Assembly: GCA_003246895.1 (NCBI GenBank)
Contig: QKCL01000039.1
Coordinates: 1-61,743, forward strand
From: Spirochaetota bacterium
GTDB taxonomy: Bacteria > Spirochaetota > UBA4802 > UBA5550
Reading direction: 5' to 3'
Length of the DNA stretch: 61,743 bases
Position numbers and translations under genes: made by a program. Of this stretch, positions 4,164-61,464 are shown piece by piece (the stretch's first letter is position 1; every line of letters starts with the position of its first letter). Below the pieces are notes generated by a model. It searched no databases. It was not told the DNA's origin and was given only the letters and a program-made list of their open reading frames with translations.

Positions 4164-4435
4164 GCTGAGAACAGAACCTGTTCAATCCCCATTTCTCCTC
4201 CCTCACCTTCTTTAACCGGTTCATAACGGCAATATTATCATCCGGTGCTGAACACTTACACAGTTTTTCTGACAGACCTGTAATATTTATTTAGTGTCCA
4301 GGTGCCGGATTTTTTATGGCCAGAAATCCAAAAAGAATCCCCCAAAATAATTAATTATTTTTATATACCAAAAACCTGCTCATATGATATAGTTACCTTG
4401 AAATGGTATAATAAATTATTTAATGGAGTATTTTC

Positions 4436-5767
4436 ATGAAAAGTAATTTATCTTCACAAAGATTTACAGCTTTTAAAAACGCAGTAACCATAATTTTGCT
4501 TTTACTTTTCACCGTCATATCCCCATCTGTTCTGAAGGCCGGAACACCCGGGAAAATTATCTGGAACTATGATTTTACGCGGGTAAACAGTGCCTACATG
4601 AGCAGGGTAACGGTATCAGCAAACATGGTTGTTGTCCCTCTGGGCACGGAAGACATGATCTGCCTTGATCTCAATACAGGGAAGGAAATATGGAAAAATC
4701 CGACTTCAAATCCCAATACAAACACAACCAAACCTGCTGCTTTCACATTAAACAACAGGATCTACACTTCGGAAAATGTATCCTACACAAAGGGTATAAT
4801 GAAGTGCCTTGATCTCAATACAGGTTCCCTGATCTGGCAGTTCCAGACACCTCAAGGGGAAAACGCCGATATCAAATACGGCCGTAAACAGATCAACTGC
4901 ACCCCTGTCGTGAAAAACGGAAAAGTCTATTTTCATGATTTTCAGGGAGTTATATACTGCCTCGATGCTTCAAACGGCTCACTGATATGGAAAAACGACA
5001 TAAACGTTACACTTAACAGGAAAAAGACAGAATCATGGAAACCCGATGCCTACGAATACCAGGGCCCCATCATGGTAGAGGGCAACAGCGTCTTTGCTGT
5101 CTGCACAAACCGTCAGCTGGTCTGTCTCAATGTTTCAGACGGCAGCAAAAAATGGATAAAGGAATTTAAGGGCTGGAGAGAAACCGACATCAGCCTTCTC
5201 GGCGCCTTCGGAGGGAGAGTATACGCGCTATATGCACCATGGAAAAAGGGAGCTTCAACTGAAACTCATAACCTCATTGCAATTGACTCTCAGACCGGAA
5301 AAGAAATATGGAAATCACCTCGCCTCAAGGGAACCTATTCCAGAGACCTGCGTGTCTTAAACGGAAACCTTATGCTTACAGGTGGAAATGCGCTATACGG
5401 TTCTGCATGGAACAAAAGTTATCTGACCTTCATTGACATAAATACCGGCAGAATTATCTCCCGCAAGGATCTCCCCTTTGATATCCGTTCACAGGCTGAA
5501 TTTGCAGAGGGCAAACGCTACTACATACGCTGGGATTTTCACGGCAAAGGGTCAACAAGCACTTTCTCCACCCTTCTCTACTGCGATGATGCCGCAACCG
5601 GCAGGAACCTCTGGAAAACAGCACTCATAAAAAACAGCAATGACTGGTACTATACAGGGAGAACCCCAAAGAGCCGGGCGACAAGTCTCCTGGTGGAAAG
5701 GGGACTGGCCTTTGTTACTATCAACAATCAGCTCTGGTGCATTCAGACAGGAGAAAGCGGGAATTAA
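4436..5767 (+). CDS. Secreted PQQ-like beta-propeller protein
   Basis: The 443-residue protein starts with a Sec signal peptide (hydrophobic 18-31, cleavage likely near LKAG). It then carries at least seven copies of the PQQ-like blade motif, for example TGKEIWKNP, TGSLIWQFQ, NGSLIWKND, TGKEIWKSP and TGRNLWKTA. This repeat builds an eight-bladed or similar propeller. No catalytic residues of quinoprotein dehydrogenases can be pointed to, so it may be a periplasmic binding or assembly scaffold (BamB-like fold) instead of an enzyme. A good ribosome site (GGAG) lies 8 bases ahead of the ATG and a strong terminator follows. Confidence 0.85.
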   Translation: MKSNLSSQRFTAFKNAVTIILLLLFTVISPSVLKAGTPGKIIWNYDFTRVNSAYMSRVTVSANMVVVPLGTEDMICLDLNTGKEIWKNPTSNPNTNTTKPAAFTLNNRIYTSENVSYTKGIMKCLDLNTGSLIWQFQTPQGENADIKYGRKQINCTPVVKNGKVYFHDFQGVIYCLDASNGSLIWKNDINVTLNRKKTESWKPDAYEYQGPIMVEGNSVFAVCTNRQLVCLNVSDGSKKWIKEFKGWRETDISLLGAFGGRVYALYAPWKKGASTETHNLIAIDSQTGKEIWKSPRLKGTYSRDLRVLNGNLMLTGGNALYGSAWNKSYLTFIDINTGRIISRKDLPFDIRSQAEFAEGKRYYIRWDFHGKGSTSTFSTLLYCDDAATGRNLWKTALIKNSNDWYYTGRTPKSRATSLLVERGLAFVTINNQLWCIQTGESGN

Positions 5768-50248: not shown

Positions 50249-51238
50249 TCAGTCTGCCTGGTCAGTTACCAGTTCATTACCATCATCTGAAAACAAACGG
50301 TCAGTAAACCTGGCATACCATGCACCGGCCTGAACCTGTATTATGTAGGCTGCTGAAATTATCAGAGCAATATCACTTCCCATTTCACCGAAAGCTGTCA
50401 TTGCAATTGCAAGGGCTATTGACAGATTCCTCATGGCAGACCCGTATACAAGAGCAATGGCATCCTCTCTCCTGAAAAAATACTTTCCGATAACCGTGCT
50501 GAGTGTAAAATTCAGAAAATACATTATCACAACAGGCACAAGGCACTTTATGAGAATCTCCGGAGCTGAAAAGATGACCTTTGACTTCATGGCCATGGCC
50601 ACAAACACTATTCCCAGAACACCAAGAGTTGAAAATGGCGGAAAGTTTTGCTTAATTCTGTTCTGAAATGCCTCCTTTCCGTAACGCCCGACTATGAATC
50701 TCTGTGTAAGGTAGCCAAGAACCATTGGTATAAAAACTATCAGTATAATCTGTCTTGCAATAATCATTAATTCAATATTCACAGAAGCTCCCATTAAAAT
50801 CTCCAGGTAAAGCGGAGTAAGGACAGACCCAAGGACAAGTCCTGTAACTGTCATTTTCACAGCTGCAGTGAGATTTCCCTTTGAAAAACCGGTCCATGAT
50901 ATTGTCATTCCCGATGTCGGCAGCAGTGACGTGAGCATTATTCCGATACGCGCTGCCGCATTATCCCTGAAGAAAACTGCTCCCAGTATAAAACCCGCAA
51001 CAGGGATGATTATAAAGTTGATCCCATGTGTTACGAGCTGCAGTCTCCTGTGGCCTGGCAGAAAGACCTGTCTCATTCCCAGACTGACCATCATAGGATA
51101 GACCATGAGGAATGTGAACGGCAGAATCAGAATTTTGAGAGCAGATAAATTAAAGTGGTAACCGAGAACTAGCCCGCCGGCCATTGCTGCCGGGATAGCT
51201 ACAATAAGCCTCTTTTGAATAAATTTGAGCATATACAT
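50249..51238 (-). CDS. BASS/ACR3-like transporter
   Basis: 329 residues with ten predicted membrane helices of the bile acid:sodium symporter/ACR3 fold. The stretch LTSLLPTSGMTISWTGFSKGNLTAAV is the conserved region holding the substrate site; ACR3 arsenite pumps have a Cys there (GIAPC), which is not seen, so substrate specificity is open. AGGAGG lies seven bases before the ATG. An isolated gene with a palindrome (51261-51276) close upstream of the start. Confidence 0.8.
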   Translation of the reverse strand: MYMLKFIQKRLIVAIPAAMAGGLVLGYHFNLSALKILILPFTFLMVYPMMVSLGMRQVFLPGHRRLQLVTHGINFIIIPVAGFILGAVFFRDNAAARIGIMLTSLLPTSGMTISWTGFSKGNLTAAVKMTVTGLVLGSVLTPLYLEILMGASVNIELMIIARQIILIVFIPMVLGYLTQRFIVGRYGKEAFQNRIKQNFPPFSTLGVLGIVFVAMAMKSKVIFSAPEILIKCLVPVVIMYFLNFTLSTVIGKYFFRREDAIALVYGSAMRNLSIALAIAMTAFGEMGSDIALIISAAYIIQVQAGAWYARFTDRLFSDDGNELVTDQAD

Positions 51239-51632
51239 AAAATACCTCCTGTCAGAATTGCAAACACAATTGTTTGTTTATTCTAACAAGTCAATCAATT
51301 AATTTAGTATTTTATTATTTTTTAAAATACTATGCATTCATTTTTGTATTCTCTGTAAAATACCAGATAAATCATAAACAAAAATGTAATTTTTTTTGAC
51401 TATGCAAATATTTTTTATTAACATATAATAAAAGTTCAACCCATACTTAAAAGTACTTAGATAAAGAAAAGTTTTTCATTATACTTCTCCTTGATTAAAA
51501 GATAAAAAGAGGGGCGGTTACCGCCCCTCTTAAACTACCAAAAAATACACACCATATTTTCATTCTTTTATTGACGAAAACTGCAAAATATGAACACAAA
51601 AGTTCTACTAATTCAGGTAAAACCTATTTGTC
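51239..51632. other. Intergenic region with palindrome and orphan hairpin
   Basis: Holds CAAACA-CAAT-TGTTTG (51261-51276), 22 bases upstream of the transporter start, a possible operator. It also holds a perfect 12-bp hairpin AAGAGGGGCGGTTACCGCCCCTCTT (two halves, 51507-51531). On the - strand this hairpin is followed by TTTTT, the form of an intrinsic terminator, though no - strand gene lies to its right. Confidence 0.55.
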
Positions 51633-52544
51633 ATGGAACATTTTATACTTTTTTACTATATATTGTCATTTTCTTCCGGTGTTGCGTCAACATACCTGGC
51701 ACTGCTTCTTTACTTTCAGTACAGGAAAAAGGCAATTTTAAATTTTTTCCTCTTTCTGCTGTCACTGAGTATAATTATGCTCTCATTTTTACTGCATGAG
51801 TATGAAAACATAGTCCATATCGGAATTGACATGTATGCAAACTTCATAGATCTGGCGGGGGGATGGCTTCTTCTCTGCATTATGCCTTTTTTTTCACATT
51901 ACATAGTAGGTGTCAGAATAACACCTGTCAAAAAAAGAATATTCATAGCTTCCGGCATTGTCCTTTCAATATCCATAATTCTGCTCATCATTTTTTTATT
52001 CATAGATATCAGAGTGTCTGAAGCAATTGAGGCGTTCATTCTCGATCCGGCACTGATCTTCTATATAGGATACTGCATATTCCGCAATGTCTCGGAATAC
52101 AACTCCATTGCAGACAAAACACTCAAAAAGGGGCTTAATCTTTTCTATATAACAACATTAATTTATCTGCCCATGCATATTGCTGCTGAATACAGCAGCA
52201 GACTCAATATCATATCACTACCGGCATTGCTGGAAATATTATCATTCCCCACATACTTCCTCATAATAAACATTATGAGTATGCTGTTCTCAATAAAACT
52301 CCATAACAGACCCGCCTTCATAAGAGAAAAAAAACTCTCAGGTTATTTCATTGAAAAATACAGCATCACAGAGAGGGAGACAGATATAATACACTACCTC
52401 ATTGACGGCCTGAACAATACAGAGATAAGCAAAAAACTCTTTGTATCCATCAAAACAATAGAAAACCACCTCACCAGTATATACACAAAGACCGATGTAA
52501 AGAACCGGGTTCAGCTGGTTAACCTCATACTTACCAATCAGTAG
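51633..52544 (+). CDS. Membrane-embedded LuxR-family transcription regulator
   Basis: 303 residues: seven or so membrane helices in the first ~235 residues (for example ILSFSSGVASTYLALLLYF, LNFFLFLLSLSIIMLSFLL, GWLLLCIMPFFSHYIVGV), then a C-terminal LuxR-type helix-turn-helix (SITERETDIIHYLIDGLNNTEISKKLFVSIKTIENHLTSIY). This puts DNA-binding directly on a membrane sensor, without a response regulator. The Ton operon begins 147 bases downstream in the same direction and two phased repeats lie in that gap, so it may control that operon. Ligand unknown. Confidence 0.85.
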   Translation: MEHFILFYYILSFSSGVASTYLALLLYFQYRKKAILNFFLFLLSLSIIMLSFLLHEYENIVHIGIDMYANFIDLAGGWLLLCIMPFFSHYIVGVRITPVKKRIFIASGIVLSISIILLIIFLFIDIRVSEAIEAFILDPALIFYIGYCIFRNVSEYNSIADKTLKKGLNLFYITTLIYLPMHIAAEYSSRLNIISLPALLEILSFPTYFLIINIMSMLFSIKLHNRPAFIREKKLSGYFIEKYSITERETDIIHYLIDGLNNTEISKKLFVSIKTIENHLTSIYTKTDVKNRVQLVNLILTNQ

Positions 52545-52551
52545 CACATTT

Positions 52552-52606
52552 TGCATCAATTAGGGAGTTCCCCATCCCCTAAAATGCACTTTTTAGGGAG
52601 TCCCCC
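52552..52606. promoter_or_regulatory. Phased 22-bp direct repeats upstream of exbB (probable operators)
   Basis: TGCA-N5-TAGGGAGTTCCCC at 52552-52573 recurs as TGCA-N5-TAGGGAGTCCCCC at 52585-52606, with a spacing of 33 bp (about three DNA turns). Each repeat carries an inverted core (TTAGGG/CCCTAA in the first, TAGGG/CCCTA in the second). This is the shape of a tandem regulator-binding site on one face of the helix. Confidence 0.6.
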
Positions 52607-52691
52607 TATTTACAATCTCCTGAAAAAAACAATAATAATGATCAAAAAACGTCATCACCATTGATGACAAATATAAAAAAGGAAAAAATAA

Positions 52692-53486
52692 ATGAATTTA
52701 AATTTTAAAAACGGTTTTTTCATTTTAATCTTATCAGGGTTTGTTTTATTTAACGGAGGAGTATTTGATTCAGCCATGGGGCAGGACAAAATTCCCGAAA
52801 AACAGACCGAACAGAATATCAAATCAGATCAGGCCAATAACAAACTAAATGATACTGATAATGTCAAAAAGGCCCGGGAAAAATCATCCGGCAATACAGA
52901 TCTAAAAAATCAGGAAGGAGAAAGCCTCTTCTCAACAGTGAAACAGGGCGGGCCTCTCATGATTTTTCTCGTATTTCTCGGCCTCGGAGCAATGACCATA
53001 ATAATCGAAAGAGGAATATTCTACACAAAAAACAGCATATGGAAGGGACAGCTCATTGAGGACCTTATCAAAAAAAGGGCTGAAACAACCAGTACTCAGT
53101 TCAGGGAGGATATGGAAGATGATCTCCGAAACTTTTTTTCCATATATGTTGCCAGGCTGGAGAAGGGCCTTGCCCTGCTTTACGGAATAGGCAACCTTGC
53201 TCCAATTGCCGGATTTCTCGGTACAGTAATAGGAATGATAAGCGCCTTTGCCTCCATTGCCGCAGCCACAACTGTAAATGCCAAAGTCGTTGCGGTCGGC
53301 ATACAGGTTGCTCTAGTCACAACCGCAGGGGGACTCATCGTGGCAGCTCCTACCCTCGCGTTCTTTTACTTTTACACACATGTCATACAGAGCCGTATTT
53401 CCCAGGCAGAAACTGTTATCTGCAGCCTTTCAGACACAATGCCCAGAATTTCTTCACGGATGAATGATACAATTCCGGGAGAATAA
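52692..53486 (+). CDS. exbB: ExbB/TolQ-family proton channel subunit
   Basis: 264 residues: signal-like N-terminus and a Lys/Asp/Asn-rich stretch (~30-75) not typical of ExbB, then the MotA/TolQ/ExbB core with three membrane helices (GGPLMIFLVFLGLGAMTIIIERG, GNLAPIAGFLGTVIGMISAFAS, VGIQVALVTTAGGLIVAAPTLAFFYFY). It builds the pentameric motor that couples proton flow to TonB. GGAA-type ribosome site before ATG. First gene of a seven-gene operon. Confidence 0.93.
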   Translation: MNLNFKNGFFILILSGFVLFNGGVFDSAMGQDKIPEKQTEQNIKSDQANNKLNDTDNVKKAREKSSGNTDLKNQEGESLFSTVKQGGPLMIFLVFLGLGAMTIIIERGIFYTKNSIWKGQLIEDLIKKRAETTSTQFREDMEDDLRNFFSIYVARLEKGLALLYGIGNLAPIAGFLGTVIGMISAFASIAAATTVNAKVVAVGIQVALVTTAGGLIVAAPTLAFFYFYTHVIQSRISQAETVICSLSDTMPRISSRMNDTIPGE

Positions 53487-53488
53487 AC

Positions 53489-53938
53489 ATGGAAAAGAAT
53501 ATTATAACAGGCAGGATACTTGCCAGAAGAAAGAACAGAGAGTTATTCAGAAAAAATGACGGAATTACTGATTCTTCATCCATGGGGGACATGGCCTTTC
53601 TGCTTCTGATATTTTTCATTGTAACCAGTTCTTTCATTCTCAGACAGGGTATTTTCTTTTCCCTGCCGTCGCCTAAATCCGGATCAGTGAAACTGATGGA
53701 TAACCAGATCATAGAGGTATATCCGGAAAACGCCGGTTTTACAGTTAACGGAAAAAATATTTCAAGGGAGGAGCTCATTACGAAGATGCATATGCAAAAG
53801 GAGCTCCATAAAGACAGTGTAGTGATAATCAAAATGAAGGACAATGTCAGATACGAGAGACTGGTTGATACACTCAGTGCGGCCAGGGAGTGCAGAATAC
53901 TGCGGGTGTCACTGAAAAATGCGGGCGGAGGGAAATAA
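53489..53938 (+). CDS. exbD: ExbD/TolR-family biopolymer transport protein (first)
   Basis: 149 residues with one N-terminal membrane helix after a GGDMAFLLLIFFIVTSSFI pattern, carrying the conserved Asp (SSMGDMAFLLLIFF) that works in proton transfer. The periplasmic part follows. It starts two bases after exbB and is followed immediately by a second exbD, a common duplicated layout in Ton systems. Confidence 0.92.
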   Translation: MEKNIITGRILARRKNRELFRKNDGITDSSSMGDMAFLLLIFFIVTSSFILRQGIFFSLPSPKSGSVKLMDNQIIEVYPENAGFTVNGKNISREELITKMHMQKELHKDSVVIIKMKDNVRYERLVDTLSAARECRILRVSLKNAGGGK

Positions 53939-53939
53939 C

Positions 53940-54350
53940 ATGAAAATTAAATCCATAGCATCCAGGCTAAGGCCCATAGCAATCGGCGCATCAATGGCTG
54001 ACATGGCCCTGCTGCTTCTTGTCTTTTTCATGGCCACGACTACAACTGAACCGCCAAAGGGTGTTGAAGTGAATCTGCCCAGAGCTCTCACTTCAGGAGC
54101 AGAACAGGACAATCTCTACATAACTGTTTCGGCCAGAGGAACAATTTACTTCGAAGGCCATATTGTATCGATAAGTGAACTAAACGATTCTCTGGCCAAC
54201 AGGCAGAGGGAGAAGGACAAAACCGTCGCAATCACTGCGGATAAAAATCTGAACTACAGTATAATTTCAGAAATGCTTTCCGTTCTGCAGGATCAGGATT
54301 TCCTGAATATTGTCTTCATGTCAGAACCTAAAAGCTCACGGGAAATATAG
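53940..54350 (+). CDS. exbD: ExbD/TolR-family biopolymer transport protein (second)
   Basis: 137 residues from this ATG. The membrane-span Asp is in ASMADMALLLLVFFMATTT. It begins one base after the first exbD stop (TAA-C-ATG), with GGAGGG before the start. A longer frame beginning at 53919 is rejected because that would put the ribosome site inside the gene. The two exbD copies may form heterodimers in the motor. Confidence 0.92.
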   Translation: MKIKSIASRLRPIAIGASMADMALLLLVFFMATTTTEPPKGVEVNLPRALTSGAEQDNLYITVSARGTIYFEGHIVSISELNDSLANRQREKDKTVAITADKNLNYSIISEMLSVLQDQDFLNIVFMSEPKSSREI

Positions 54351-54353
54351 AAA

Positions 54354-54986
54354 ATGAACAGTAAAAGACCGAATATATCCATAAAAGCGGGACTTCACGA
54401 TATTGAAGAGAGGCACCCCTATGTTTTTTCATTCATGCTGTCGCTTGCGATTCTGTCCTATCTTTTCTTCAGAGTGCCTTCTCTTGAACTCATCCATGAC
54501 AGCACAAATGCCAATGAAAACATTCAGTTTGTAAATATCGATGAGATTCAGGCCCAGAAAAGGGTTGTAAAGAAAGACATTTCCGAAGAAACGGACAATT
54601 CAAAAACAAACGAAAATGTTTCACGTGCAACAGGCACATCTGAAGATGCTGATGCAGTGGATCTTGCCTTCTATGCAAATGTTGCACCGCCGAGACTTGT
54701 CAGCAAGCTGAAAAAGGACCATCCGAAGCTGGCAAAGGAGATGAACATTGAGGCATCAGTTACTGTTGCACTGCTCATCTCCGCCACAGGGAAAGTAAAG
54801 CATGTCAACATCATAGGGATCAGGCTCAGCAAGGATCTCCCACGTGAAATATATGAAAAAATGACCAGGGCATTCTACCAGTACGCCATGAACAGCCTCT
54901 ACAGCGCAAGGTACAGCCCCACAATAATCGACGGCCAGAAAAGGCCGGTTAAGATCGATACAGTTGTGCATTTCAGGTTAAAATAG
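54354..54986 (+). CDS. tonB: TonB energy transducer
   Basis: 210 residues: one N-terminal membrane anchor (HPYVFSFMLSLAILSYLFFRV), an Asn/Thr/Asp-rich linker (no long Pro-rich region), and a TonB C-terminal domain (EASVTVALLISATGKVKHVNI...YAMNSLYSARYSPTIIDGQKRPVKIDTVVHFRLK). It reaches the receptor TonB box and transmits force from the ExbB/ExbD motor. Starts three bases after exbD. Confidence 0.9.
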   Translation: MNSKRPNISIKAGLHDIEERHPYVFSFMLSLAILSYLFFRVPSLELIHDSTNANENIQFVNIDEIQAQKRVVKKDISEETDNSKTNENVSRATGTSEDADAVDLAFYANVAPPRLVSKLKKDHPKLAKEMNIEASVTVALLISATGKVKHVNIIGIRLSKDLPREIYEKMTRAFYQYAMNSLYSARYSPTIIDGQKRPVKIDTVVHFRLK

Positions 54987-54999
54987 AAAGGGAGCAAAA

Positions 55000-57435
55000 A
55001 TGAATTACAGAAAAACATTATATACCTGTATGATATTCCTTTTCATGGGTGCTCCTTCAGTTATGTCCGAGCTGTTTGCCCAGAAAAAGATAACCATGTC
55101 AGGTACAGTCTATGACAGCGTTTCAGGAAAACCTGTCGATTTCGGAACGGTTACAATAATTGAGGAGAGAGTAAAGGCAAGAACAGAAGCGCAGGGACGG
55201 TACAGAATATCTGTTTCAAAACCGGGCACATACACGGTAATTGTCCGTTCACAGGGCCTTGGAGTTCTGAACACAACAATGAATATAAACAGGGACATGG
55301 CCAGGGACTTCAGTCTGAAGCCCTTGACAATAAACGTTTCCGGAATTACGGTTACAGATGACAAGTACTTCCAGAAGGTTTCGAGAAGAAAAATGACAAG
55401 AGAGGAGATGAAGGCCACTCCTGCTTCATTCGGTGATGCAATAAACGCATTGACATCGCTTCCAGGAATTGAAAGGACAGACGGATTTTTCGGACCCCTT
55501 GTAATAAGGGGCATGTATGACCAGCATAACAGATACTATATCGACGGCATGCCCATCAGCAATCCCATGCACTTTGGAGGACTGCACGCAGTTATCAACA
55601 CAAACCTCATGGATGAAATAAACCTGTACTCTTCATCCTTCCCGGCAAGGTTCGGCGGAGCAATGGCTGCAGTCATAGATATCTCCACCGTTGACAACGT
55701 AAAAGAGGAAGGAGGCTATGTCGACACTGGACTCATTTCCACAAATATTCTTTACCAACGACCGTTTACGAGAGAGGTCACACAGCCGGACGGTGAAATA
55801 AAGAAGGAAACAACAGGTTATATTATCGCCTCGGGCAGATACGGCTACCTGGGGTTCATCATACCATACCTCTATGAAAAATTCACAGACAAAAAGTCAC
55901 TCGTTGTTCCGGAATACTATGATTATCAGGTGAAAATAAAGCAGTATCTTGACAGCCATAATTCCCTTACACTCCTGTTCATCGGAAGCAAAGATTACTT
56001 CAGGTTTTTCACTGAAGATGATACACTCGATGAAGAGGCCGATCCGCTGCTTAATGATATTGAATTTGAGCAGAACGAGATGTTTCACAATCTTGGACTC
56101 TATTACGACTACAGAGGGGGGAGAATTAAAAACAGGGTCATGGCCTATGCCTCACTTACCCAGTTTGATGTTTATGTAAACAGCAATCAGATTTCATCAA
56201 GTACACCGGACTGGCTTGAAGACCTGAAATCAACAAGCAAACCCTATATTTTCGGGCTTAAGAATATCTTTGACTTCGAATGGATAAAAAACCACGCAGA
56301 CCTCAAAGCATCGGTAGAATATACATATTACAGGTTTGAAGCTTCAGGAGAATCTGTAGTCCAGAGCCGGAATAACGGCGGATACACGCAGATGGATGAC
56401 ATAACAACAGTACCCATTGACGGTTCTTCAAAGAACCACACTGTGGGAGGATTCATTGAGAACAGATTCACCGCAGGAGGACTCACTTTCGTGCCTGGAC
56501 TTCGATCTGATTATCTGAAACTTACAGATACTGCAACCTTCGACCCCAGAGGGATGATATCATATGAATTTTCTTCGGACACAACAGTCTCTGTTGCCAG
56601 CGGAAAATACAGTTCATTCTTTCAGGTTAATCCATATTTCTTCAATTACTATCCCGATGTGGCGCAGATGGATACAAAAACTACAGAACGCGCATACCAC
56701 AACGTAATAGGAATTGAACAGGTTCTGGGACTCTACACACTGGGCATTGAGGGGTACTACAACCATTTCGAGAACCTTGCTGTGGGCTACCCGCATTATG
56801 AAGACGGTGAACAGGTTCTGGGACAGGCTTCGGGAAAAATGAAGGCATACGGATTTGAAGTTATGCTCCGCAAGGACATGCGTGAAAACACCAGCGGTTT
56901 CTTTGGATGGATGAGCTATACCTACTGTGTATCAAAATACAAAAGCGGAATAACAGGGAACATTTTTGATGAAAACGGAAACGACACCGGAACAGCATAC
57001 GATCCAAACGGAGATAAATGGATTAATTCAGATTTTGACAGGCGCCATTCGGTCAAACTGGTCCTTGGATATAAATACGGCAAATTCACCTTCAGCGGCA
57101 AGTTCCAGTACCTCACTGCATATCCAAGTACAGCCATTATCGGGTCAACAGAAGACACAAACTATCCGGGCAGGTATACCCCTGTTTATGATATAAGCAA
57201 CCAGAATGAATACAGGGAGGCCTCATACCACAGACTGGATCTGAGGATATCACACAAGACCAGCTACGAATGGGGATATGTGAGCTGGTATGTTGAAGTT
57301 ATAAATGTCTATAATTCGGCACAGAAGGAGACAAACTGGAAATACAATCAGCCGTACTCTGACAGCAATCCTGACACCAGCGATGATGAAGGACTTACAA
57401 TCATTCCGAATTTCGGTGTTGAAATCAAATTCTGA
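55000..57435 (+). CDS. TonB-dependent outer-membrane receptor with carboxypeptidase-regulatory-like domain
   Basis: 811 residues: signal peptide (~1-27, ending ELFAQ), a carboxypeptidase-D regulatory-like Ig domain (~30-110: ITMSGTVYDSVSGKPVDFGTV), the plug domain (~130-250: FGDAINALTSLPGIERTDGFFG...VIRGMYDQHNRYYIDGMPIS) and a 22-strand-type barrel ending in PNFGVEIKF with terminal Phe. It takes up a rare ligand through the outer membrane with TonB energy; substrate cannot be told. Its own ribosome site and the 13-base spacing to tonB place it in the operon. Confidence 0.9.
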   Translation: MNYRKTLYTCMIFLFMGAPSVMSELFAQKKITMSGTVYDSVSGKPVDFGTVTIIEERVKARTEAQGRYRISVSKPGTYTVIVRSQGLGVLNTTMNINRDMARDFSLKPLTINVSGITVTDDKYFQKVSRRKMTREEMKATPASFGDAINALTSLPGIERTDGFFGPLVIRGMYDQHNRYYIDGMPISNPMHFGGLHAVINTNLMDEINLYSSSFPARFGGAMAAVIDISTVDNVKEEGGYVDTGLISTNILYQRPFTREVTQPDGEIKKETTGYIIASGRYGYLGFIIPYLYEKFTDKKSLVVPEYYDYQVKIKQYLDSHNSLTLLFIGSKDYFRFFTEDDTLDEEADPLLNDIEFEQNEMFHNLGLYYDYRGGRIKNRVMAYASLTQFDVYVNSNQISSSTPDWLEDLKSTSKPYIFGLKNIFDFEWIKNHADLKASVEYTYYRFEASGESVVQSRNNGGYTQMDDITTVPIDGSSKNHTVGGFIENRFTAGGLTFVPGLRSDYLKLTDTATFDPRGMISYEFSSDTTVSVASGKYSSFFQVNPYFFNYYPDVAQMDTKTTERAYHNVIGIEQVLGLYTLGIEGYYNHFENLAVGYPHYEDGEQVLGQASGKMKAYGFEVMLRKDMRENTSGFFGWMSYTYCVSKYKSGITGNIFDENGNDTGTAYDPNGDKWINSDFDRRHSVKLVLGYKYGKFTFSGKFQYLTAYPSTAIIGSTEDTNYPGRYTPVYDISNQNEYREASYHRLDLRISHKTSYEWGYVSWYVEVINVYNSAQKETNWKYNQPYSDSNPDTSDDEGLTIIPNFGVEIKF

Positions 57436-57445
57436 GAGGAGAGAG

Positions 57446-57796
57446 ATGAAAAAAATTTTATGTATATATAGAACAATAATACTAGGCATGATGCTGATAC
57501 TATCATCTTGCACCACATACTTCCAGAAGGCGCAGTCTCTTGTTCCGTTGGCCGGTAAACACACTGTAAACCTTGGGCATGTAACGGGAAGTGACAGCGC
57601 CTGGTCCATACTTGGCCTCTGGATGATCGGCAGGCCCGATACCCATGAGGCAATAAGTAAAGCCCTGAAGAACAAAAATGGAGATACCCTCATAAATGTA
57701 TCGGGCCGTGAAACCACACTGTGGTTTCTGCTCTTCTCAGTTACAACCGTAACTGTTGAAGGGGATGCAGTTAAAATAAAGGAGATCAGAAAATGA
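57446..57796 (+). CDS. Small lipoprotein of the Ton operon, paralog A
   Basis: 116 residues with lipobox LSSC (Cys near 22). The mature protein ends in INVSGRETTLWFLLFSVTTV and VEGDAVKI. The ATG at 57446, with GAGAGG ahead, lies 11 bases after the receptor stop. It is clearly paralogous to the next gene, sharing the arrangement GD-x-(L/M)INV-x-x-(R/K)ETxxW-(hydrophobic)-TV-(x)VEGD. No family recognised; possibly an accessory of the receptor. Confidence 0.82.
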   Translation: MKKILCIYRTIILGMMLILSSCTTYFQKAQSLVPLAGKHTVNLGHVTGSDSAWSILGLWMIGRPDTHEAISKALKNKNGDTLINVSGRETTLWFLLFSVTTVTVEGDAVKIKEIRK

Positions 57797-58152
57797 AAAC
57801 AGGTATAATCAAACTCATATTCTTTTCAGTTCTTTCTCTTGGAATTTCCGGATGTATCAGCATGGGCACAAATGCCACCGGCATAGGACAGACAGCGCTG
57901 CCATATTCCGGACAGAAATATGAAGTTGTGGGGAAGTCCAAGGGACAGAGCAGCAGCTACAGACTTTTATGGTTCTTTCAGGTTACTCCAACTGAGGAGA
58001 TGGAACGCGCAGTAAAAAAGGCAATAGCTGAAAAGGCCGGAGATAACATGATAAACGTCTGCTACTGGAAAGAGACACAGATATGGCTTCTGGGCCTTGG
58101 AACTGTAAAAATTCTTCATGTTGAAGGAGATGTTATCAGGTATAAGGACTGA
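57793..58152 (+). CDS. Small lipoprotein of the Ton operon, paralog B
   Basis: 119 residues; lipobox ISGC (Cys near 21). Its ATG overlaps the stop of paralog A (ATGA), so translation is coupled. It shares with paralog A the pattern INVCYWKETQIWLLGLGTVKI and VEGDVIRY. Last gene of the operon. A large inverted repeat (58154-58263) follows. Confidence 0.82.
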   Translation: MKTGIIKLIFFSVLSLGISGCISMGTNATGIGQTALPYSGQKYEVVGKSKGQSSSYRLLWFFQVTPTEEMERAVKKAIAEKAGDNMINVCYWKETQIWLLGLGTVKILHVEGDVIRYKD

Positions 58153-58153
58153 T

Positions 58154-58263
58154 TTCGACGAGGGTTAAAAGTTGAAAGGGGGAAAGATGAAAGCTCGTAA
58201 TACAAACTTTAGACTTTGTCCTTTCAACTTTAGACTCCATTATCATATAAATGCCCGTCGAAC
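58154..58263. repeat. Imperfect inverted-repeat element (MITE-like) between convergent genes
   Basis: Outer arms TTCGACG/CGTCGAA and an inner perfect 12-bp pair AAAGTTGAAAGG/CCTTTCAACTTT frame about 40 bases. It closes the Ton operon on one side and the propeller lipoprotein on the other, and could terminate both. Small palindromic elements of this kind are often mobile or dispersed repeats. Confidence 0.5.
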
Positions 58264-58289
58264 GCCGACAGAAAACCTGCCCTTATGAA

Positions 58290-59129
58290 TTATTGATTCA
58301 GTTTATATGCCACAACACGGTTATCAAAGAAAGTAGGAACAAGTATCATTTTCTTTTCAGGAATATATTCAATATCTGCCGCATTTATTTTTTTATCTGA
58401 AGTATCATTCAGAACAACAGGTTTCGTTTCTTTACCGATGAGCTGAATCTTCCCCTTCCAGTCACTTACAATATATGACCCCTTTCCATCCGATTTCAGT
58501 CCGTCAATGCCTCCCTCAAGCGGAACCTCCATTTTTGCAGACTTCGTCTTGATATTGACTCTCAGTAAACCTTTCGCCGTACCTACCATGAGAGAATCTC
58601 CTTCCATGAAAAGCCCGTTCGGTTTATTATACTCCTTTAGATCAAGCCATACTGCAGCAGCACCGCCGGACAGAATCAGCACACGGTTCATTGCCATGTC
58701 AGTAATATATACATTACCGGATTTATCTATGGCAATGTCATTAAGAAACTTTGCTCCCTTCACTATGACTGTTTTGATAATTTTTGACTTCGCAATATCT
58801 ATCACATGAATTCTGTCTATGTCAGTTACATAGAGAGTATTTTTGAATATTCCCATTCCCTTAGGCGCACTCATACCTGTCACCCACTGCAGCTTTATAA
58901 TTTTGCCGTCAGGAGAGATTTTTGAGATAAACCCGTTTCCGTCCATGTCTGTTGATTTCCCGTTTATGTTTGAAACATACAGAACATTATTTGTGCTGTC
59001 ATACATAACAGACTCAGGCACTTTCAGTTCTCCCGGTGTTGACCATATCTCCTTTACTTTTGAACCGCCGCATGAAAGGACAAGAAAGAGAGCTGCAATA
59101 CTGACAATTATTACATAAAATTTCCTCAT
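58290..59129 (-). CDS. SMP-30/NHL-like beta-propeller lipoprotein
   Basis: 279 residues: lipobox LSCG (Cys near 20), then a propeller of repeating units (VMYDSTNNVLYVSNINGK, IAIDKSGNVYITDMAMNRVL, VYVTDIDRIHVIDIAKSK-like). This fits the SMP-30/gluconolactonase or NHL-type six-bladed propeller anchored to the membrane. The catalytic metal residues of true gluconolactonases are not clear. Confidence 0.83.
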   Translation of the reverse strand: MRKFYVIIVSIAALFLVLSCGGSKVKEIWSTPGELKVPESVMYDSTNNVLYVSNINGKSTDMDGNGFISKISPDGKIIKLQWVTGMSAPKGMGIFKNTLYVTDIDRIHVIDIAKSKIIKTVIVKGAKFLNDIAIDKSGNVYITDMAMNRVLILSGGAAAVWLDLKEYNKPNGLFMEGDSLMVGTAKGLLRVNIKTKSAKMEVPLEGGIDGLKSDGKGSYIVSDWKGKIQLIGKETKPVVLNDTSDKKINAADIEYIPEKKMILVPTFFDNRVVAYKLNQ

Positions 59130-59546: not shown

Positions 59547-60647
59547 TTATGCTACATCCCTTATTTTTATTCCTTTTCCCTTTAAAAATATATCATATTC
59601 TTTCATCTTTCTTAAATGATTGAGCTCATCTCGGTACCAGTGATATTCCTGGTTTGAAAGCATATTTACTATGGCCATTCTCATTTTTCCTCGTCCCTTT
59701 TTTTCACTTTTAGTCTCATACCAATTATTCAGATATTCATTTGCTTTTCTAAAATGAGAAACAGACTGAGTAACCATTGAAACAGAAAGTTTTCTTCCAA
59801 ACTTATTTGTCCTTCCAATTCTGATAATATCGCCAGAGCTATCAACACTAGGAGCGCTTCTTAAATATGATGTTAAATGCTTTGAGTTTGGGAACCTATC
59901 AATTGATGCTATATCAGCAATTAGTGCCAGAGCCATTATTACACTGATTCCTTTCATACTAGTTAATATTTCAATTTCTTTATAATAGTCAGCTCCTATT
60001 GATTTTATCAGATTTTCTACATCAGAAATATTCTCTTCTGTTTCTTTCAGTTGTTTAAATAAAATTTTAAGTTGATATTTAATAGGTTCAGGCAAATTGT
60101 ATTTTTCAATATATTGCTCACGTTTTGTCTTTGATGAAAATGAACTTCGAGAGATACAGATCAAGTGTTGCTTGAAAATTGAATGAATATTATTTTTCAG
60201 TTGAATCGTAATGCTTTTTAAGGATTTATAACTTGAAAAGCATGACCTTAACATTCTGATAGATTCCTCCGGTACATAGACAGGCTTAATTAATTCTTCT
60301 CCTGACATTACCTGCATCTTTAAGAAAATTGCCAATTTCTCTGCATCTACTTTATCTGTCTTTTTATTTACCATGGAAATTAATTTTAGCTTATGCGGAT
60401 TGGCTACATAAACACACTTAATGTGATTTCTTATTTTTGAAACAAATTCAAAGGTTCCTGTACTAGCTTCAACAAGAACCACTGAATTATTTCCGGCGTA
60501 TTCAATGAAAGCCTGAATACCTACTTCATTTACCGGAAATGTTATTTCAAGTTTTTCATTAAAATCATTTAGGAAACAACAATTAAATTTTGCAGAATGT
60601 AAATCAATGCCAATAAAGAAACTCTTGTTTGACTTTTTCAGGTTCAT
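59547..60647 (-). CDS. IS110-family transposase (recombinase)
   Basis: 366 residues, intact. N-terminal RuvC-like DEDD domain with Asp15 (IGIDLHSAK), Glu61 (VEASTGTFEF), Asp99 and Asp102 (KKTDKVDAEKLA). C-terminal Transposase_20 domain (SMKGISVIMALALIADI, and the serine region LRSAPSVDSSGDIIRIG), as in IS110 and IS621. The gene is much more AT-rich than the surrounding ones, arguing for recent arrival. AAGGAGGG lies six bases ahead of the ATG at 60647. Confidence 0.95.
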   Translation of the reverse strand: MNLKKSNKSFFIGIDLHSAKFNCCFLNDFNEKLEITFPVNEVGIQAFIEYAGNNSVVLVEASTGTFEFVSKIRNHIKCVYVANPHKLKLISMVNKKTDKVDAEKLAIFLKMQVMSGEELIKPVYVPEESIRMLRSCFSSYKSLKSITIQLKNNIHSIFKQHLICISRSSFSSKTKREQYIEKYNLPEPIKYQLKILFKQLKETEENISDVENLIKSIGADYYKEIEILTSMKGISVIMALALIADIASIDRFPNSKHLTSYLRSAPSVDSSGDIIRIGRTNKFGRKLSVSMVTQSVSHFRKANEYLNNWYETKSEKKGRGKMRMAIVNMLSNQEYHWYRDELNHLRKMKEYDIFLKGKGIKIRDVA

Positions 60648-61086: not shown

Positions 61087-61464
61087 AATAAAATTTATAG
61101 ACCATTGTATAAAATTCATGGTCTGGAGCATAAACTTCATGGTCCGTTGAATAAATTTCATGATCGTGAGCATAAACTTTATGGTCCTTTGTATAAATTT
61201 CATGGTCGTGAGCATAAACTTTATGGTCCTTTGTATAAATTTTATGGTCGGGATCATTGATTTTATACTCCCGAGAGTAAATTTCATGGTCCGGAGCGTC
61301 GATTTAACACTCAAGAGTGTTATTTTAACTCTCTGGAGCGTCGTTTTGACTCTCGGGAGTGTTGATTTAATACTCTGGAGCGTCGTTTTGACTCTCGGGA
61401 GTGTCGATTTGACCAAACGATGCGTCGTTTTAACCAAACGGTGCGTCCATTAGACCGAACTATG
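61087..61464. repeat. Degenerate 21-bp tandem array, 18 units (right)
   Basis: Unit starts run exactly every 21 bases from 61087 to 61444. The unit is like CATAAACTTTATGGTCCTTTG in the left part and CGTCGTTTTGACTCTCGGGAG in the right part, showing two subfamilies with internal block duplications. Both strands are open in one frame because 21 is divisible by three; the + frame reads as a heptad (V/S)-(L/I)-x-(F/L)-(M/T)-V-x and the - frame as (K)-T-T-L-x-x-(V/I)-type. It is in the same orientation as the left array, while the flanking insertion sequence is inverted. Confidence 0.88.

Follow-up and report, generated by a model that had tools for sequence, protein, structure and literature searches.

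A seven-helix membrane LuxR-type protein probably switches on an adjacent, conserved Ton operon in an uncultured spirochaete

Here we describe a conserved Ton uptake operon in an uncultured spirochaete, together with a seven-helix membrane protein of the LuxR type that is encoded directly upstream and probably switches the operon on. Among relatives in the same order, the transporter appears to have been retained and the regulator swapped at the same position. The locus is best read as being under the local control of its membrane LuxR protein. More broadly, we favor, with moderate confidence, a conserved Ton module placed under locally swapped envelope sensors, which in this genome would be a one-component 7TM LuxR activator. 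The usual accounts of Ton uptake genes place them under soluble repressors (Fur, for example), sigma/anti-sigma relays, or two-component systems. The operon studied here is accompanied, depending on the lineage, by several unrelated kinds of sensor, with the adjacent DNA changing to match. If the control is real, the operon is a natural test case of how regulators replace one another, and a comparison of the sensors in the upstream slot could reveal the import cargo of an uncharacterised receptor.

The window, meaning the whole stretch of DNA analyzed (61,743 nucleotides), belongs to a genome of 3.57 Mb in 95 contigs, and its ExbB is closest, among named records, to those of uncultured Spirochaetes (L045-L047). 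All eight genes of the original prediction were confirmed, on the + strand, in the order claimed, and with the expected domains. The LuxR gene (51633-52544) is followed by exbB (52692-53486; PF01618, E=6.5e-25), two copies of exbD (53489-53938 and 53919-54350; PF02472, 1.1e-21 and 2.2e-20), tonB (54354-54986; TonB_C PF03544, 4.7e-8), a TonB-dependent receptor gene (55000-57435), and the genes for two small LIC20211-like lipoproteins, A (57446-57796) and B (57793-58152). The receptor carries an N-terminal CarboxypepD_reg domain (PF13620, 4.6e-10) and a plug (PF07715, 6.2e-9). Spacings between the seven Ton genes are +2, -20, +3, +13, +10, and -4 bp, with a 20-bp overlap between the exbD copies and a 4-bp overlap between the lipoprotein genes, and the LuxR gene lies 147 bp from exbB. 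Gaps of -20 to +13 bp against one of 147 bp indicate a tight operon with the regulator as a neighbor, leaving space for a promoter. ExbB, ExbD, TonB C-terminal, and plug domains all score above their curated cut-offs in one cluster, as is expected of a Ton uptake system, and the core of the operon is real, tidy, and ordinary. The host probably has at least one further Ton system, since four more plug-domain receptor genes and three more of the MotA/ExbB family lie outside this locus in the same genome.

Of the 59 genomes searched, 43 contain relatives of the receptor, nearly all belonging to the same order. The exbB-exbD-exbD-tonB set precedes the receptor at L125/L047, L126, L128, L130-L133, L136, L157-L159, and L046, and it also accompanies the receptor in the contig-edge fragments L045 and L134. 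At L157, two tandem tonB genes lie between exbD and the receptor (4218-5515). Of 40 loci, 26 have the lipoprotein pair 3' of the receptor gene, relatives of lipoprotein B occur in 34 of 44 genomes, and some genomes lack this exb set but retain the receptor and lipoproteins. The original prediction had singled out an extra carboxypeptidase-regulatory-like domain and two paralogous lipoproteins at the end of the operon. Both are present, the lipoproteins being 29% identical over most of their length, but neither is specific to this locus. Orthologous receptors usually align from query residues 4-27 onward, so the CarboxypepD_reg domain is a standard part of the receptor family. One Leptospiraceae-like genome also has the lipoprotein pair with a homologous receptor, and one of its lipoproteins passes the NF047814 (LIC20211) cut-off. 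The operon is conserved across an uncultured Spirochaetota order and related to the LIC20211-type lipoprotein/receptor loci of Leptospiraceae; in itself it is not new.

The slot directly upstream of exbB, on the same strand, is filled differently from one relative to another. At L126 and L136, Pfam identifies a HAMP-HisKA-HATPase kinase and an OmpR-type response regulator. L045 has a HisKA-HATPase kinase (Pfam) and L046 a kinase C-terminus recognized by eye, and both show the kinase alone because their contigs end there. Two families have orthologous versions of this two-component system, with response regulators 69% and kinases 46% identical. A PAS-HisKA histidine kinase occupies the slot at L130 and a membrane AraC protein (HTH_18) the slot at L157, both by Pfam, and an AraC-type gene (HTH_18, Pfam) also precedes a paralogous receptor at L160. 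L125, L128, L131-L133, L158, and L159 have no regulator directly upstream. In the operon tree, the LuxR case adjoins a locus without an adjacent regulator. The original prediction implied that regulator and operon would be conserved together, and comparative genomics speaks against this: the receptor is present in most genomes of the order, and none of the relatives examined has a LuxR gene adjoining the operon, the nearest LuxR-type hit lying about 16 kb from the receptor locus. A co-conserved LuxR-operon unit was therefore rejected. The pairing is known from one genome only, as no second member of the genus was among the relatives searched. A self-contained system with dedicated sensing, as first proposed, holds in part for this genome, but the system is not a fixed unit.

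The LuxR protein has 303 amino acids, with PF00196 (LuxR/GerE HTH) at residues 244-297 (E=3.9e-15). Its structure, predicted with nine aligned relatives, consists of seven long helices, a linker, and a four-helix HTH; confidence in the model is modest (mean pLDDT 68.8), with the HTH part mostly at 80-92. The inner loops contain 3, 4, 4, and 6 Lys and Arg residues and the outer loops 0, 0, 1, and 1. Based on this positive-inside bias, the N-terminus is predicted to be outside and the HTH inside, in the cytoplasm. The helices, charge bias, and PF00196 match agree with the multi-span membrane protein with a C-terminal LuxR HTH that had been proposed, and the protein is a predicted one-component membrane activator. 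The predicted HTH superposes at about 1 Å on the domains of DegU, LiaR, GerE, and NarL. A fold search with the 7TM part gave no significant match, and no meaning attaches to its alignment with a GPCR chain (TM 0.38). No receiver domain of the NarL response regulator type lies ahead of the HTH, where PF00196 alone was found and the N-terminus is membrane-spanning. The absence of an anti-sigma factor also held, as no sigma, anti-sigma, or FecR domain was detected among the ten window proteins scanned (50249-59129). No close relatives of the LuxR protein were found in named genomes. Downstream of the closest membrane-LuxR relative, at L187 (6150-7154), comes a lipoprotein with a FecR domain, another pairing of a membrane sensor with a lipoprotein.

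The DNA between the LuxR gene and exbB contains the repeats reported for 52552-52606, namely two 14-bp copies of TTAGGGAGTYCCCC. Copy 1, TTAGGGAGTTCCCC (52560-52573), is a candidate regulator site; copy 2, TTAGGGAGTCCCCC (52593-52606), follows after 33 bp within the near-palindrome TAGGGAGTCCCCCTA (52594-52608). The two copies are unique, with no further site in the 3.57-Mb genome at up to one mismatch, and a genome-wide TTAGGGAGTYCCCC regulon was rejected on this count. When the 147-bp gap was dinucleotide-shuffled 300 times, 2 shuffles gave a comparable pair, a figure that, like the other motif statistics, is descriptive because the motifs, including TTTAATC (below), were chosen after the sequences had been inspected. 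Directly after copy 2 is a promoter-like TTTACA-N16-AATAAT (52609-52636) with 10 of 12 consensus matches, which is weak evidence since the scanned region gave 9 such matches against 8.1 expected by chance. LuxR-type activator sites are classically located near -42, and copy 2 would be centered near -42 if transcription starts about 7 bp after the promoter-like -10.

We propose that the seven-gene operon may be transcribed as a single unit from a promoter just 3' of the 52560-52606 repeats, and that in this species the adjacent 7TM LuxR-type one-component regulator would control it. The membrane helices would sense a signal within or outside the inner membrane, and the cytoplasmic GerE domain would bind both TTAGGGAGTYCCCC sites and activate exbB transcription, acting from a class-II-like position provided that the promoter match is correct. 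Throughout the order, the operon would be kept and the sensor in the slot exchanged together with its operator, the slot being filled by an OmpR-type two-component system, a PAS kinase, a membrane AraC protein, a 7TM LuxR protein, or no regulator.

Alternatively, the 7TM LuxR protein could be an orphan, placed beside the operon by accident, whose targets are its own gene or distant ones, with the operon constitutive or otherwise regulated. Its full-length relatives elsewhere in the order, which are 15-26% identical overall (alignment A1), do lie beside unrelated genes, such as those for lipoproteins, OMPs, and the FecR-domain lipoprotein, and several relatives carry the operon with no adjacent regulator. 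The host genome also encodes Fur-family proteins. We nevertheless consider an orphan unlikely: the LuxR gene is on the same strand and immediately upstream, genome-unique repeats lie in between, and other sensor-regulators have repeatedly occupied the same slot in relatives. Fur-box control was rejected, as the best matches 5' of exbB in 14 loci were not clearly above shuffles, and that of the window exbB was equalled in 19 of 200.

Local control by the sensor in the slot is consistent with how the intergenic repeats change among relatives. Repeats of the window type were not found upstream of exbB in any relative at fewer than 4 mismatches. Three copies of TTTAATC at exact 11-bp steps occur only in the two-component loci L126, L045, and L046, and two degenerate copies 22 bp apart in the two-component locus L136; three of these four loci are close relatives. 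A step of 11 bp is the spacing of OmpR/PhoB-type sites. TTTAATC repeats are absent from L130, which has no adjacent two-component pair. The gap at L157 instead contains the inverted repeat ACAAGTGA-N14-TCACTTGT, equalled in 11 of 300 shuffles. A bolder version, which we hold to be quite improbable, is that the slot accepts unrelated plug-in envelope sensors (two-component, membrane AraC, and 7TM LuxR) that replaced one another, each with its own operator, and that RcsF-fold lipoproteins could signal the state of the receptor to the sensor in place.

The repeats and hairpins at 52551-52668 could also be RNA elements (an attenuator, terminator, or stabiliser) rather than operators, with LuxR gene and operon forming one transcription unit under post-transcriptional control. 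The leader folds better than shuffled sequences (z -3.1; 1 of 200 as good), and a hairpin, GTCATCACCATTGATGAC (52651-52668), lies just before the ribosome-binding region of exbB. Being able to form RNA hairpins, the repeat region could be an attenuator or a luxR terminator. However, a near-palindromic 14-mer directly repeated at 33 bp, or roughly three turns of the helix, looks more like a protein site, and no terminator-like site was found on the + strand in the repeat and hairpin region. No Rfam family was reached in 51000-58500, on which basis a riboswitch or known RNA at the locus was rejected. RNA-based control is an improbable explanation of this region.

The lipoproteins are 116-119 amino acids long and share a lipobox cysteine that is invariant across an alignment of 29 family members. 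Their NF047814 scores of 26.9 and 35.2 bits, against a curated cut-off of 130, make them homologous to the curated LIC20211 family but outside it. They contain no SusD domain, and no SusD-like substrate-binding lipoprotein is adjacent to the receptor. Lipoprotein B was modeled with a mean pLDDT of 88.6. Structural alignment placed YbjQ/DUF74-type, RcsF, and IgaA periplasmic chains in the first seven ranks (Z 6.7-7.7, with 76-83 residues aligned; RcsF chains 6.7-7.0, a DUF74 chain 7.7), followed by dodecin at Z 5.3 and unrelated folds at 3.8 or lower. The resemblance of the predicted fold to RcsF/YbjQ is suggestive only, since a Z below 8 may reflect a mere common arrangement. The fold matches and the tight linkage of the lipoprotein pair to the receptor would suit a trans-envelope relay, in which the two RcsF/YbjQ-fold lipoproteins report receptor occupancy to the 7TM LuxR protein without an anti-sigma factor, but such a relay is very improbable given the low Z, a Foldseek search of lipoprotein B with no significant match (best E 0.11), the presence of the pair where no sensor adjoins and in Leptospiraceae-type genomes, and the lack of RcsF-like disulfide cysteines in the mature proteins (besides the lipobox, B has one and A none).

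The sole NCBIfam match of the receptor, MxcH, is sub-threshold (18.2 bits against a cut-off of 925), and no solved structure is related to the receptor by sequence. The cargo would be a nutrient or metal chelate; with no family model above cut-off, solved relative, riboswitch, or Fur box to go by, our default guess for a receptor of this kind is a metal chelate or else a small organic ligand.

Like the Coriobacteriia LuxR regulators DadR, HcdR, and CadR of Eggerthella lenta (PMC9734109), the window protein has a polytopic membrane N-terminus, a C-terminal LuxR HTH, and no partner kinase. Those regulators are encoded beside the genes that they were experimentally shown to activate (PMC9734109), whereas activation by the spirochaete protein is what we infer. 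They also have 10-12 helices rather than the seven predicted here, and adjoin redox enzymes rather than a Ton uptake operon in a spirochaete. The Leptospiraceae LIC20211-family locus (NF047814; L164) similarly combines a homologous receptor and ExbB-ExbD-TonB genes with two small lipoproteins that are paralogs of each other. It differs in having the lipoproteins upstream, one exbD, a receptor 25-29% identical, and no adjacent regulator identified; by gene numbering, the L. interrogans receptor would be LIC20214. By gene content, not protein sequence, the operon can also be likened to LIMLP_04240-04285 of Leptospira interrogans, another spirochaete, where the PerR-controlled TonB-ExbD-ExbD-ExbB / receptor / LipL48 locus has consecutive genes for ExbB, two ExbD, and TonB and, close by, those for a receptor and lipoproteins, but in separate operons and under a soluble Fur-family regulator (PMC7567364). 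As in FecI-FecR-FecA, a Ton-dependent receptor gene adjoins a membrane-associated regulatory gene; unlike that system, there is neither a sigma nor an anti-sigma factor here, and the membrane protein itself carries the DNA-binding domain. The original prediction had noted no earlier description of such a system. That does not apply to this kind of operon, which is widely conserved and related to a Leptospiraceae-type locus, but in the open-access literature we found no description of a LuxR-controlled Ton operon or of a 7TM LuxR protein beside a Ton system. The point of interest is the regulator turnover at a conserved operon, together with this 7TM LuxR sensor.

Several other features were observed in the window. 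A strong GC-rich palindrome (51507-51531) upstream of the LuxR gene has a terminator score on the - strand, where no gene was seen to end at that position. Shortly downstream of the operon, a 366-aa ORF on the - strand (59547-60647) resembles, by eye, an IS110-type transposase. Near the window end, a tandem array of 21/42-bp units (61088-61464) extends into ORFs on both strands, and L149 shows a protein with a similar repeat style.
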